From Stratiolaelaps scimitus (lineage: Eukaryota > Arthropoda > Arachnida > Mesostigmata > Laelapidae), in assembly GCA_019614645.1 (NCBI GenBank), contig JABWDB010000009.1:1550001-1614000 (forward strand): a DNA stretch of 64,000 nucleotides, given 5' to 3'. The position numbers and the translations under genes were made by a program. Every line of letters starts with the position of its first letter. The first letter of the stretch is position 1. The notes beneath the pieces are model-generated. The model ran no database searches, was not told the origin of the DNA, and was given only the letters and a program-made list of their open reading frames with translations. Positions 21,763 through 45,970 of this stretch are shown here, one piece after another.

Positions 21763-22240
21763 TACGTGGAAACGAATGAGAGCAATTTCAATGTTTGCGT
21801 CTTGCTTGTATCTTGAATTCTACGCTTACAACATGAGCTATGATTCCTGTCGTTGTTGTTGTGGATTAATTGACCTCGTAGTATATAGGCGCGCACCTTG
21901 GTATCGGATCGTAAAAAAAAAGATATTTCATAACTAGCTTGGACTTGAAACTCCGCCTAAAATTTCGGGCGAATTCCCAACCATGTTTGCAGGTACATTT
22001 CTCTCTCGAACTGTCGACAGCATTTCAACACAATAGTCAGTGCCCCGAAAACCCCATTGCTCGTTGTATGTGACACCTTATAAATGGCACAAAGGACAGT
22101 GCCGCCTACCTAGACAGCATGCAACCACCAAGAAAATGGAATAACCTGAGACACGAAGACTTCAGCTTAAATCCGACCGAATGCTGTGTATGATGAGTTG
22201 CATCAATCTTGGTGCGCGTTGTAGGAGAATTATAAATAAA

Positions 22241-22345
22241 TATATTTTCCGGGCTGACCCACAGCCAACATTTAACGTCCAGGACACTGCTTTCGGCATT
22301 GCTTCATAAGACGGTCGGCTTTAAATATAAATGTGTAACGGTGGA
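22241..22345 (-). mobile_element. SINE family 2 fragment (5'-truncated)
   Basis: On the minus strand this segment matches the body and 3' end of the SINE-like repeat also seen at 42019-42211, 42553-42660 and 56604-56650. Shared landmarks, read on the plus strand, are a 3'-terminal TTTTCCGGGCTGACCCAC-like string, CAGCCAACATTTAACGTCC and TTCGGCATTGCTTCATAAGA. The tRNA-like head is missing: similarity stops just after the GTGTAACGGTGGAG segment near 22345. This is the pattern of incomplete reverse transcription of a retroposon. Its minus-strand 3' end is followed by an AT-rich stretch containing AATAAATA. Confidence 0.7.
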
Positions 22346-24825: not shown

Positions 24826-25024
24826 GAATGTGTATTTTCATTATGAATTTTCTATCAGTTAATTGACCTCGTATCTGGTCGTCAAAAATGGCTCAGAATA
24901 TGGTCGAACTGATATATATATATATATATATATATATCCGCTCGATCATATTCTGGGTCATGTTTTGACGACCAGATACGAGGTTACCTAACTAATAGAA
25001 AATTCTTAATGAAAATACATATTC
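24826..25024. mobile_element. Foldback (long palindrome) with (TA)n loop
   Basis: The left arm (24826-24909) and right arm (24940-25024) are inverted copies of each other along about 84 bp with only scattered mismatches. Shared landmarks are GTATTTTCATTA, AATTTTCTAT and TCGTATCTGGTCGTCAAAA on the left and their reverse complements on the right. A (TA)n run at 24912-24937 forms the centre. Transcribed from either strand it would form a long, nearly perfect RNA hairpin, and as DNA it could extrude a cruciform. It resembles a foldback MITE. No target-site duplication is evident. An endogenous hairpin-siRNA source is an alternative. Confidence 0.8.
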
Positions 25025-26420: not shown

Positions 26421-26421
26421 A

Positions 26422-26461
26422 CTAGAGTTGGCCTTGCCCTACGGGCAGCGGCCAACTCTAG
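26422..26461. repeat. GC-rich 40-bp terminal hairpin
   Basis: Arms CTAGAGTTGGCC (26422-26433) and its exact reverse complement (26450-26461) enclose an inner 5-bp stem TGCCC/GGGCA with a 3-base loop. It sits directly after an AATAAATACATA-like sequence and marks the left boundary of the composite element. It could form a stable terminator-like or recombination-end structure. Confidence 0.9.
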
Positions 26462-26530
26462 TCCCGCTCGCGATATATTATCATTACATGTTGGAGAAAT
26501 GGAAAAATTGAGATACGGGAGTTTCTGAGA

Positions 26531-26842
26531 CGCAGTTCTATGAGTGTCGGCAGGAGCCTGCGGCTCCTGGCCGACACCGGGACTCTCTTCTCTCTTTCGC
26601 AGTTGTATGAGCGGCGTCCAGGAGCCTTCGGCTCCTGTCCGACGGCGTCCCCCGCAGTTGTATGAGTGTCGGCAGGAGCCTGCGGCTCCTGGCCGACACC
26701 GGGACTCACTTCTTGCTTTCACAGTTGCATGAGCGACGTCCAGGAGCCGAAGGCTCCTGGCCGACGCATCTTCCACAGTTCTATGGTCGTCGTCCAGTCG
26801 CCTTCGGCTCCTGTCCGACGGCGTCCCCCGCAGTTGTATGAC
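26531..26842. repeat. Array of five hairpin-bearing tandem units
   Basis: Each unit opens with a C(G/A)CAGTTNTATGAG-like string, starting at 26531, 26598, 26653, 26720 and 26774, with a sixth partial start at 26829. Unit lengths are about 67, 55, 67, 54 and 55 bp. Every unit contains an inverted repeat with arm AGGAGCC and its complement GGCTCCT around a 3-base loop (TGC, TTC, TGC, GAA; the fifth arm is mutated), flanked by a further GTCGG/CCGAC stem. Two subtypes alternate: those ending in GGGACTC plus a CT-rich spacer and those ending in a shorter spacer. Open frames across the array on both strands are by-products of the periodic sequence. Confidence 0.92.
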
Positions 26843-27300
26843 TCAATGTGGCGGACACACGGACAGACAGACAATGCAGTGTTTTTGAGCATTCAAGCGC
26901 ATAATCGACATTATCTCGAAAACGGTCAACTTTAGGTATAGGAACACCTATTGTTGATTTGTTCAGCTTAGTCAGACGCATCAGCTAATGATATAATATG
27001 GACTCTCAGTGGTCTGTATAAGGAATAAATCGAACATTAAACTTAATAAAATGGAATTTTCAAATTAATAGAAAACCTGAGCGAAATCGACATATAGAAA
27101 AATACGTACACATGCCCCTTCTCAAGTGCAACAACTCCCCAATTGACATTGTTAAGAGAAAGTCAAAGGAAAGTATCAGAAAACGACGAAAACAGTGCAA
27201 TTTTTTGTGATAGGTTTTTGTTTTTCGCAATTAAAAAGATATTAACAAACGCGTGACATAATCGAAATTATTCAGAACATGGCCCTCCCGATGAGCTTTT

Positions 27301-27989
27301 ACCTCAAAGCAAAAAGAAACAAATTCAACAATGGGAAAGTAGTCAAATAAAATGAAAAGTGGCGAAAAATTGACCCCCTCGGGGTTTTTCGGCCTCCAAA
27401 ATGGTCAACTCGAAAACGGTCAACTTTAGGTATAGGAACACCTATTGCAAAAGTGTTCAGCTCGTCGAAATATGTCGATTAAGCGCAAGAAAGTGACCCC
27501 TTACATAGAGCACCATGTTGAGGTTTTTTGCTCTAATTCAAAAAGTATCCACTTTAGGTATATGTATACCTATTGCAAAAGTGTTCAGCTCGTCGAAACG
27601 CATCAGAAACACGCGAGAAAAGTACCCCTTACATAGATCACCATGTTAAACACCTTTTAGAAAAAGGCAAAAAAATGGTCGAAAATGCCAATTTAGCCTG
27701 ATGACAATATTTACAAAGTTGTTCAGGACTGTAAAATGCATCGATACATGCAGAGAAAACCACCCCTTACATAGACCTCATGTTAAAAAATCCCCCCCCA
27801 TTTTGACCCCCACCCCCCCAGCGACCCCCCACCCCCCTCAAGTTGTAGCCCTCGTCAATAGCTACACAATGATACCAAACATGACCATATTGAAAAAAGT
27901 TAAACCCCAAAAGTCATCCGCCGAAACGAAACGGAAGTCATTGTCAGACAGACGGACACCACGAGCCTTAATAAAGAATTTAGATTTTC
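27301..27989 (+). repeat. 689-bp tandem unit, copy 1
   Basis: Head-to-tail duplicate of 27990-28678. Within the unit, three diverged modules of about 100-140 bp each end in a conserved CCCCTTACATAGA plus CATGTT motif (near 27496, 27624 and 27761), two of them beginning with the TTTAGGTATA palindrome. A C-rich tract (27791-27838) follows the third module, then a GACAGACGGACACC string and AATAAA. Open frames inside are identical in both copies because the DNA is nearly identical, which is not evidence of coding. Confidence 0.93.
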
Positions 27990-28678
27990 ACCTCAAAGCA
28001 AAACGAAACAAATTAAACATAAGCAAAGTAGTCAAATAAAATGAAAAGTGGCGAAAAATTGACCCCCTCGGGGTTTTTCGGCCTCCAAAATGGTCAACTC
28101 GAAAACGGTCAACTTTAGGTATAGGAACACCTATTGCAAAAGTGTTCAGCTCGTCGAAATATGTCGATTAAGCGCAAGAAAGTGACCCCTTACATAGAGC
28201 ACCATGTTGAGGTTTTTTGCTCTAATTCAAAAAGTATCCACTTTAGGTATATGTATACCTATTGCAAAAGTGTTCAGCTCGTCGAAACGCATCAGAAACA
28301 CGCGAGAAAAGTACCCCTTACATAGATCACCATGTTAAACACCTTTTAGAAAAAGGCAAAAAAATGGTCGAAAATGCCAATTTCACCTGATGACAATATT
28401 TACAAAGTTGTTCAGGACATCAAAACAAATCGATACATGCAAAAAAAACCACCCCCTACATAGACCTCATGTTAAAAAATCCCCCCCCATTTTGACCCCC
28501 ACCCCCCCAGCGACCCCCCACCCCCCTAAAAACATAGCCCTCATCAATAGCTACACAATGATACCAAACATGACCATATTGAAAAAAGTTAAACCCCAAA
28601 AAAGTTCCGCCGAAACGATTTGCACCTCATTGTCAGACAGACAGACACCGTTGCTCTAATAAATACTATAGATATATA
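27990..28678 (+). repeat. 689-bp tandem unit, copy 2
   Basis: This unit is essentially identical to copy 1 over the segment matching about 27340-27690. It is visibly diverged over its last 290 bp, for example just after the C-rich tract and around the GACAGACAGACACC string. It ends in AATAAATACTATAGA and runs straight into a (TA)n tract. Confidence 0.93.
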
Positions 28679-28692
28679 TATATATATATATG
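28672..28692. repeat. (TA)n microsatellite at repeat-block boundary
   Basis: A short TA run directly abuts the right end of the composite repeat. Confidence 0.9.

Positions 28693-42505: not shown

Positions 42506-42552
<47 letters not shown>
42506..42552. repeat. (CA)n-(TA)n compound microsatellite
   Basis: A CA run at 42506-42520 passes directly into a TA run to 42552 that abuts the 3' end of a SINE family 2 copy read on the minus strand. This suggests the microsatellite grew from the SINE's AT-rich tail. Confidence 0.9.
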
Positions 42553-42555
<3 letters not shown>

Positions 42556-42660
42556 CATTTTCCAGTCTGACTCACAGCCAATATTTAACGTCCACGGTAC
42601 TGCTTTCGGCATTGCTTCATAAGACGGACCCCTTTAAATATATTTATATATATGTGAACG
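42553..42660 (-). mobile_element. SINE family 2 fragment (5'-truncated)
   Basis: Minus-strand copy of the SINE body and 3' end. It shares TTTTCCAGTCTGACTCACAG, CCAATATTTAACGTCCACGG and CTTTCGGCATTGCTTCATAA with the 22241 copy. The tRNA-like head is absent; similarity fades at a TATATGTGAACG-like sequence. It lies only about 340 bp from a longer copy of the same family in the same orientation, and its 3' end runs into the (TA)n tract. Confidence 0.75.
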
Positions 42661-43448: not shown

Positions 43449-44645
43449 GTCTAGATATAAAATGTGAATGTCTTTAGTGCTGACCAGCGTCAGAGGTCCG
43501 CCTCTGATAGCTGAGGAGAACTAAGGAGAATTTATGATAAACAAGAGATTCTGTAGAACTTGACAGTCTTCCTCGCCGAGCAGGCTCAGCTCTAACTAGT
43601 ATTGATAGTCAGCTCGTGTGCAACGTGAGCGATCCTCAGGCAACGAGACAGACGTCGCGTCCGGACAATTACCGTTTGAATAACAAGCATGTAGCGGCCT
43701 TGGCAGGCCTCGAGTCTTCCAGAGTGAAATCGAACTCAAATTGCCGGCTGATGCAGTACTATGGAAGGTGCATATTCAGTGTGTCTGTGCGTGTGTGAGA
43801 GAGAGAGATGGGTGGCGTGCAAAATTGAGTTACGCTGTGTCTACGTGTAACTCCTTTGAGGGAATAATAATCATAATGTTCGACTTGATTTGCATATGTT
43901 CACTGGCGATGAGTCGATTCATAATCGATCCCTTGAGAGGATGATAGTAATTGTTTTAGCAGTTCCCAGAAGTGCGCTCCGAGCGCGCGGTCAGAATATC
44001 GGATCGGTTTCGAAGCCTCTTGAAGCCTATTCAGGTCTCCTCAGCGGTTTGAAAGGCTCTTTAGGACTATGGCACCATAAGGCTGGTACTACTCGTTCGT
44101 ATGGATAGCCCAAGCCATATCGCAGTAACGGCATTTCGGGGTAGCCTAGAAATATGTTCATAGTTGAAATCGGTCCGACGTTAACTGCAATCGTGCGATA
44201 TTCATAACTGGCGGGCGCTACACAATGTATATTATAACGGACTAGATCATATACATATAGTTATATATGTGCATGTGTCGTCGCTGGACACCTAGGCTAA
44301 GCATGACCTTTCCTGATGTGGCGCTCCAAAAATTAGTCGCCCACTACCAGCAACCTAGCTACCAAATTGGAATTTGATCTTGTTGATTACCGTTATTTTC
44401 TGTTAGATATCATTTAACTCTTGTGTACTAATCCCGTTAACCGTTTGTTCGTTCGCTTATTCATTAATTATCCAGTTAGTCCTAAGCATTGTTCAGTTAC
44501 CCCTGGTTGTCCCGATCGAATTATCTAATTGCAGTTTTTCCCGCTTTTTCCTTATTTCAATTAAGTAGCTGAATGATTCAAGTTGCTCTGTCATCTTGCC
44601 ACAGTTAAACTATACATTGATTCAGTTGTTGAAGAGCGCGTATAA

Positions 44646-44733
44646 CGTCGCATGCAGCCTGCTACAATGTGTCATATTTCGGTTGTGCAAAATGATGACG
44701 CATCTTCAGTTATCGAGTGTTTTTGCTGAATTA
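44646..44733 (+). repeat. Left subterminal inverted repeat of Tc1 element
   Basis: Inverted partner of 45747-45840, with scattered substitutions and a few small gaps by eye. It ends 35 bp before the transposase ATG. Its position shows that the repeats are internal and long, the long-TIR arrangement seen in some Tc1-family lineages. Confidence 0.85.
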
Positions 44734-44768
44734 ATCTAGTTTGTGTTGAGCATTCAAGCTGTACTGTA

Positions 44769-45726
44769 ATGAGGGGACCCGCTTCGAGCCTTACTGATGC
44801 ATTGAAAGCAGTTATTACTGCTTTACACCGATCAGGAAAGACCCAGGCTGCAATTGCCAGAGAAATTGGCAGAAGTCATTGCGTAGTGCGAAATTATTTA
44901 CGCAGTCAGTCGATATATGGTACTAATAAGTTTAAAGGACGTCCACGAAAGATCAGCCAGCGAACTGCCATGCACATCTGTCGATCGACCTCGAATTCGA
45001 GCATAAGTTGTGAAGCAATCAGGCATGAGTTAAAAGTTCAGGTTCATACATCAACAGTTTTTAGGACAATTAAGCTTTATCCGCATATCACACGAGCACA
45101 AATGAAAACAAGTCCACGTCTCCAACAACGCCACATGACGGCCCGACTAAACTTCGCCCGCAACAATATGGCCAGAGATTGAAATTGGTGAGTATTGCGG
45201 CAACGTTTTTTAAAGAATATCTTGTGGGTGCGCATCTATCAAAAAGGTACTGTGTTGTTTCAGTGACGAGAAGAAGTTCAATTTGGACGGGCCACATTGA
45301 TTTAACGGTTATTGGTATGATGTACGTAAAGAGCCGCAGTACTTCTCAAAGCGTAACTTCGGCGGCGGGACCGTTATGGTTTGGGGAGCTTTCACCTCTC
45401 TTGGCAGACTCCCACTCGCTTTCATCTCATCTCGAATGGATAGCGAGGACTATCAACAGATGTTGACCAACAACCTACTATCGTTTAGGAGCAGATTTCA
45501 TCGACTGCCAATTGTTTTCCAACAAGATAACGCTTCAATTCACGTCAGCGCTAGTACACGTCGAATATGCGTCGGATCTACAGTATACATCCGTGTAAGC
45601 ACTAAAAGAGGCGTTGTTAGAGGCCTGGGGAGGTGTAAGCGACCAGATCCTGCTAAATCTCGTTGATAGATGCCAAACCGAGTCTTTGACGTTATAATTA
45701 GCACGGGTGGGGCCACACCGTACTGA
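44769..45726 (+). pseudogene. Tc1-family transposase pseudogene
   Basis: The first 137 codons give a bipartite paired-type DNA-binding region: helix-turn-helix one around residues 8-45, a GRPRK AT-hook-like motif at about 58-62, and helix-turn-helix two around 75-105. A TGA at 45180-45182 stops the frame near an expected RDW. About 60 extra bases follow before the catalytic region resumes. The first Asp motif SDEKKFNLDG begins near 45262, with a second stop after GPH, then the WGAF motif near 45382, and the second Asp motif QQDNA near 45527. The segment with the third acidic residue is deleted near 45600; the frame then shifts to a LLEAWGGVSDQIL-like segment and again before MPNRVFDVI, ending at 45724-45726. 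Clearly dead. Confidence 0.9.
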
Positions 45727-45746
45727 TTTGCACAAGAAAACCAGAA

Positions 45747-45970
45747 TTTATTCGGCGAGAACCCTCGATAACTGAGGGTGCGTTATCATTTTGCATAACT
45801 GAAATATGACGCATTTTATTGTAGCAGGCTGAATGCGACGCGATATGTGCTGTTCTTTGTGATATTTGACACGCACATTAATCTGATACATAATAAATGC
45901 CTCAAATGTGTATTCTTTGTAACGATTTGTTGAAATATAGGGGTGCGTTAGGTTTATGCACACCACTGTG
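45747..45970. repeat. Right inverted repeat and terminus of Tc1 element
   Basis: The inner part (45747-45840) is the inverted partner of the left repeat. The outer part runs to the terminus complementary to CAGTGGTGTGCATAAACC. An open frame on the minus strand here (45748-45966) is only the translated repeat. A TA dinucleotide, the Tc1 target, follows. Confidence 0.85.

Follow-up and report, generated by a model that had tools for sequence, protein, structure and literature searches.

Canonical Helitrons (TC...CTRR) have a 5' TC and a 3' CTRR, insert between A and T without target-site duplication, have RepHel-coding relatives and carry a hairpin that lies some 10-12 nt before the 3' end. As described in the relevant parts of PMC4778049, Helibat/Helraiser elements begin with 5'-TC, end with CTAG-3', insert at A/T without target duplication, have a 3' hairpin 11 nt upstream of CTAG and have non-autonomous partners. 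Helraiser requires its left end and is flexible at its right end. It also has an AT-rich stretch in its left end and an AT-rich target preference that is strongest on the 3'-flank side (PMC4778049). Sections of PMC4067079 describe a proto-Helentron of Phytophthora infestans, about 14 kb long and encoding a Helentron-like protein, which combines a 5' TT with a 3' CTAG and inserts at A/T. HINE/DINE-1 elements, including oyster Cg_HINE, are non-autonomous, contain internal tandem repeats, form dispersed satellite-like repeats and insert without target duplication at T-T or T-rich sites; they carry subterminal inverted repeats (parts of PMC4067079 and PMC7492417).

Neighbouring Helitrons have been described in several of these systems. 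Bat insertions abutting another Helitron are reported in PMC4778049, and part of a Fusarium study describes a copy separated by 2 bp from the 5' end of its neighbour (PMC5148889). In maize, a CTAG|TC junction between unlike neighbours was attributed to consecutive insertion, and one model has the insertion occurring at the A/T made by a host A and the 5' T of the resident copy; the relevant part of that paper treats a single pair and mentions no extended target motif (PMC2267711). Bat and silkworm arrays have instead been attributed to missed termination (work cited in part of PMC4067079).

We identified a related block in a 64,000-nucleotide window of Stratiolaelaps scimitus (the window being the whole stretch of DNA analysed, C9:1550001-1614000 of one 426-Mb assembly in 145 contigs). 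The block is very probably a non-autonomous Helitron, presumably mobilised in trans by the predicted RepHel of a related Helitron and derived from a coding element by loss of the RepHel interior; further copies would be added at the 5' ends of resident ones. Its features are as follows.

26422-28672, minus strand (the element strand): predicted non-autonomous Helitron, 2251 bp, with ends set by comparison with 20 other loci.
26422-26462, minus strand: 3' terminal hairpin, flush with CTAG (plus-strand 26422-26425), from inverted-repeat listing, folding and 283 exact genome-wide matches to its 3' arm.
26463-26530, minus strand: spacer from the terminal hairpin to the hairpin array, from locus tiling; at other loci it is repeated within longer arrays.
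26531-26841, minus strand: array of GC-rich hairpin units, from TRF, tiling and folding; the number of units varies between copies.
26842-27296, minus strand: P segment, holding one TTTAGGTATA..CCTATT motif, from tiling of loci.
27297-27984, minus strand: C core of the full unit, with its 5' TC at plus-strand GA 27983-27984.
27985-28672, minus strand: second, 3'-truncated copy made of the C core only, with its 5' TC at plus-strand 28671-28672.
28673-28691, no strand: host (AT)n microsatellite at the insertion point, from the sequence; right flanks differ at other loci.

The element and its relatives share with canonical Helitrons the 5' TC, the 3' CTRR (as CTAG), A/T insertion without duplication and a RepHel-coding relative. 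The hairpin differs in position. As the original prediction had noticed, its arm includes CTAG and is flush with the end, rather than lying about 10 bp before it, and this also separates the element from Helibat/Helraiser (PMC4778049, in part). The family further differs from the bat elements, as portrayed in that part, in its extra hairpin array, some TT 5' ends, common arrays and a TTTATTA-like target beyond AT-richness; its loose right end resembles Helraiser with damaged right ends (PMC4778049). The likeness to the proto-Helentron is one of ends and insertion site, and the window element itself starts with TC. T-T insertion and subterminal inverted repeats, features of Helentrons and HINEs, are absent, and insertion is at A^T. 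The likeness to HINE/DINE elements, raised earlier, extends to non-autonomy, internal tandem repeats, a dispersed satellite-like distribution and the lack of target duplication, but the comparison fits less closely because of these two features, as given in parts of PMC4067079 and PMC7492417.

All three repeat types that had been recognised in the block are real, as judged by inverted-repeat, TRF, direct-repeat and folding analyses. The arms of the terminal hairpin (26421-26433 and 26450-26462) are 100% complementary, and the hairpin folds at -18.6 kcal/mol (z -5.4, single-stranded DNA). The hairpin-unit array (26531-26841) has a period of 122, 2.4 copies and 85% matches in TRF; five array pieces, folded singly, gave z values of -5.4, -2.8, -5.4, -5.1 and -1.7, the last not clearly above chance. 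Judging from its position and shape, this array may be a set of alternative 3' stops. The direct repeat of 689 bp (27297-27985 and 27986-28673, 93.6% identity) contains nested subrepeats about 128 bp apart. A palindromic motif, TTTAGGTATA...CCTATT, had been thought to be common to all three repeat types; its five copies are confined to the P and C parts, and the motif was dropped as a link between all parts because the hairpin parts lack it. Among the 18 repeat pairs listed, no inverted repeat joins the two ends of the element, and Rfam gave no match at gathering score in the window.

The block consists of a full unit (26422-27984) and a truncated second copy (27985-28672), and the join, which reads ...GGTGAAAA|TCTAAATTC, falls exactly at the 5' TC of the full unit. 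One unit at another locus (L009) matches the full unit at 99.3% identity across 1576 aligned columns; the unit that follows it there differs from the C-only fragment of the window. This fragment is probably a copy that arrived afterwards at the 5' boundary of the full unit and had ended prematurely.

Other elements lie elsewhere in the window. A Tc3-like mariner transposon (44631-45855) has inverted ends of about 120 bp that are 79% alike and a transposase fragment. A near-palindrome of MITE-like shape (24826-25024) has 62-bp arms, 90% complementary, with 75 bp between them. A dispersed repeat is present in two copies that are 87% alike (22231-22329 and 42543-42642), and pieces of it match the flanks of two loci of the Helitron family (both copies at L019, the second copy, 42543-42642, at L025).

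A search with the 689-bp core gave at least 82 matches on many contigs, at least 43 of them covering at least 660 bases, with 40 of 367 candidates scored. We fetched 20 regions picked from the best core matches, cut the block into four parts (H, the terminal hairpin and spacer; R, the hairpin array; P; and C) and tiled these on the 20 loci. The same general arrangement recurs head to tail: H first, then a variable R, then P and finally C; certain units lack some parts. Where the fetched stretch reached far enough, the H side and the C side are each bordered by host DNA. Pattern GGGCAAGGCCAACTCTA, which represents the 3' arm of the terminal hairpin, has 283 exact matches in the genome (129 forward, 154 reverse), compared with 0 genome-wide for a reversed control. 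Exact patterns from the element matched no stretch in viral_contigs, and blastn of the element against a phage collection returned no match. One contig, C14, starts inside an array of the family (L028, C14:1-9990).

On the minus strand the window element begins A|TCTATAG and ends CTAG|T, with the hairpin flush to that end; the flanking plus-strand host bases are A at 26421 and T at 28673. The left boundary had been placed exactly by the original prediction (26422), but the right boundary is 28672 rather than 28678, with host (AT)n from 28673. A 5' TC, earlier described as not evident, is present as plus-strand GA at 28671-28672, next to the host T at 28673. Other units of the family begin with TC or, in a subset, TT. 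The window and the 20 loci together hold 68 unit 5' ends, of which 15 face host DNA and 53 another unit. The preceding host base is A in 14 of the 15 host-facing cases, the exception being a G at L010.

In the first loci, 12 host-facing 3' ends retain AGAG from the hairpin arm; CTAG is present in 11 of them, and T follows the end in all 12. L019, outside this set, has the host-facing end GGCCAA|T. This alternative end, 6 nt short of CTAG, recurs (L019 at about position 107, L013, L014 and L020), and the copies that bear it may form a subfamily with a distinct right end. Further 3' ends were taken from 52 of 58 loci, 121 bases each, using the outermost end for clusters and excluding four loci from the earlier set and two whose pairs were inverted or mixed. 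Four of the 52 were dropped because their flank was classed as another unit (one, L064, may be host). In the remaining 48, all retrieved by a pattern that contains most of the 3' end, CTAG is present in 40, with T next in 37 of these. Six of the other eight end CTA|T. Counting the CTA|T ends, T lies directly 3' of the end in 43 of 48, and five 3' flanks start without T.

Within arrays, the 53 internal junctions comprise 18 CTAG|T, 15 CTA|T, 14 GGCCAA|T, 1 in the hairpin loop and 5 deeper. The left end is constant, the right end loose. An account in which the element is a Helitron, but its arrays arise by read-through past the 3' end or by multiple rolling-circle rounds and not by repeated insertion at resident 5' ends, predicts direct junctions, and these occur: among the 18 CTAG|T junctions, 12 read directly CTAG|TCTA and 3 CTAG|TTAA. 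The published explanation of the bat and silkworm arrays (cited in part of PMC4067079) is of the same kind. Concatemers, however, should start identical, and neighbouring units are no closer than unrelated ones. For 49 C units at 21 loci, mean identity is 0.9473 within loci (48 pairs) and 0.9472 between loci (1128 pairs; permutation p 0.48), and the nearest relative of a C unit lies in the same locus in 4 of 49 cases. Different 5' end types also stand side by side in arrays. Later joint movement of composite copies would blur the argument from neighbour similarity. We regard the read-through account as unlikely, though deserving of weight, and the equal identity within and between arrays favours repeated insertion over both concatemers and a homogenised satellite.

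A complex satellite, spread and kept alike by unequal crossing-over with the dispersed copies as fragments, is a very improbable reading. Many loci do contain head-to-tail arrays with a variable number of hairpins, and some multi-unit stretches are common to several loci, so that part of the original satellite alternative stands. The local homogenisation of tandem units that is seen in satellite DNA is absent from the 49 C units at 21 loci, and we dropped the satellite reading for this lack of local similarity. Constant ends at host junctions also count against it, as does dispersal: the 100 listed 3' arms (of 283) represent 58 loci with common boundaries, and 43 of the 58 have a single exact arm, with variant ends uncounted there.

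Comparing ten locus pairs at length, we found that L022 and L023 have a single 1.45-kb unit in common at 99.8%, which favours movement of single units and is a further point against a satellite. L012 and L016 have 2.7 kb in common at 98.4%, spanning more than one unit. Such loci indicate that composite movement or segmental duplication also happens, and this sharing counts against a purely single-unit mode of movement.

Two empty sites of other copies show that insertion occurs between A and T without target-site duplication, in agreement with the original prediction. For L018, the uninterrupted site lies in the left flank of L027 and reads ATTATAA^TTGTG, with no duplication and no loss; one T can be assigned to either side. 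For L021, 23 of 40 matches span the whole joined flank query at 97-99%. In the two matches fetched, the empty site reads CACGA^TCTCC, and 2 bp are missing from one side of the filled site. The L021 insertion sits in a repeat whose conceptual translation resembles, by eye, a reverse transcriptase. For the window copy, a genome search for an empty site found that the flanks match only their own two sequences.

We also identified coding relatives. The Helitron_like_N domain (Pfam accession PF14214) has 17 matches in the genome, some of which are pieces of one place. The longest open frame among them (1829 aa) lies on contig C45, in a copy about 11.6 kb long (C45:309752 down to 298186), all but 1.3 kb of which was read. 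This copy starts A|TCTATAG, with TCTATAGTATTTATTAGAG after the host A. Its first 1082 aligned nucleotides, on the 5' side, are 92% identical to the window unit, and the P segment from about 26904 upward is common to this side. Its right part has a hairpin array of the same kind, and it matches the final 276 nt of the window element at 93.5% as far as CTAG; another unit begins directly after.

A second coding copy, on contig C84, is a chimeric Helitron. Its ORF (1427 aa in the stretch read) encodes PF14214 and PIF1 (Pfam accession PF05970) domains and contains HAH and paired-tyrosine stretches, which we take to be the HUH and Y2 motifs. The RepHel frame continues straight into the non-coding element core and then a hairpin array (L032, L049 and L052; C84:724500-731324), and no endonuclease domain was found in this ORF with its non-coding extension. 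When residues 450-1380 of the frame served as a protein query, the listed proteins (best 120 of 1503) were mostly about 32-37% identical, and the named ones near the top of these 120 belong to a springtail, a hoverfly and a beetle. A GC-rich hairpin-unit array lies near the 3' end of both coding copies.

The RepHel-coding relative has in common with the window element its left 1.08 kb, its hairpin array and its CTAG-bearing terminal hairpin, so the window element looks like an internal-deletion derivative of a coding Helitron, the direction of change being deduced. Boundaries, empty sites and this relative together support the minus-strand, Helitron-like reading with a CTAG|T 3' end that was originally proposed. 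On the plus strand, the block could instead be taken for a retroelement of the non-LTR or Penelope-like kind, with AATAAA at its 3' end, a 5' end truncated to varying extents and an A/T tail left by target-primed reverse transcription. This would account for plus-strand ends that bear TAATAAA, often followed by A/T repeats, and for one constant and one variable end as in 5'-truncated retroelements. The reading is exceedingly improbable, and we dropped it given two empty sites without target-site duplication and both ends in common with the C45 RepHel copy. Also against it, the supposed 5' end is exact in 11 of the 12 and 40 of the 48 dispersed copies (the 48 found through a pattern including most of that end), and the AATAAA-like flank is the target motif on the opposite strand.

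Host DNA 3' of insertions tends to resemble the left end of the element, carrying near +9 a sequence similar to TTTATTA. This was first spotted by eye in the first 12 flanks, as a TTTATT-like word some nine bases past CTAG; the element's own 5' ends carry such a word at +9/+10. A motif matrix built from five element 5' ends scored a mean of 6.4 on these 12 flanks, compared with 1.4 after shuffling. With matrix and window kept unchanged, the 48 new flanks scored 5.04, compared with 0.87 for shuffles (highest of 5000, 2.83), and windows further out in the same flanks scored -2.7, -2.7 and -2.0. T is present at +9 to +11 in 33, 36 and 34 of the 48 flanks, respectively. TTTAT or TTATT occurs in the near window of 30 of 48 flanks and in equal-width distal windows of 3, 1 and 2 of 48. 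Because the target word is absent from 18 of 48 flanks, we describe it as a preference and not a rule. AT content over ten bases is 83% in the 48 3' flanks and 81% in 14 5' flanks (L012 left out). Given the similar AT content on the 5' side, we claim no asymmetry, and part of the motif signal comes from the AT-richness of targets. The AT-rich stretch in the Helraiser left end and that element's AT preference on the 3'-flank side are in agreement with these findings (PMC4778049).

These observations suggest a mechanism. Loss of the RepHel interior from a coding element would have kept the left ~1.08 kb, the right hairpin array and the terminal hairpin, and the RepHel of a related Helitron could then mobilise the derivative in trans, as the common ends suggest. 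By analogy with Helitron biochemistry, a Y2 HUH nuclease would nick at the 5' TC, and strand peeling would continue until it reached the 3' terminal hairpin or stopped earlier. The copy would then be joined between A and T, probably by way of a circle. If T-N7/8-TTTATTA is what the nuclease prefers in donor and target alike, a resident copy would offer a good target at its 5' end, and repeated insertions there would yield head-to-tail arrays. The 3'-truncated copy in the window was probably added to the 5' end of the full unit in this way. Several observations count against this explanation: the hairpin flush with CTAG, the TT starts of some units, the five of 48 3' flanks without T, the G at L010 and the 2-bp loss at L021.

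A stronger version of the proposal, which we hold to be evenly balanced, is that the transposase recognises A^T-N7/8-TTTATTA both as the left-end nick site and as the target. A resident copy would then be the best target, arrays would be a direct product of target recognition and not replication errors, and the hairpin array may provide alternative 3' stops. A literature search found no title or abstract describing such a target motif. Neighbouring Helitrons and AT-rich targets were already known; the present analysis adds the left-end-like target and the test of local similarity.

Head-to-tail Helitron arrays are often blamed on missed termination, and the sequence evidence from this one genome favours repeated insertion. 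A left-end-like target provides a simple, testable rule for array growth. With its coding and non-coding relatives, natural 3'-end variants and variable hairpin array, the family is useful for studying how the Helitron 3' end is defined.
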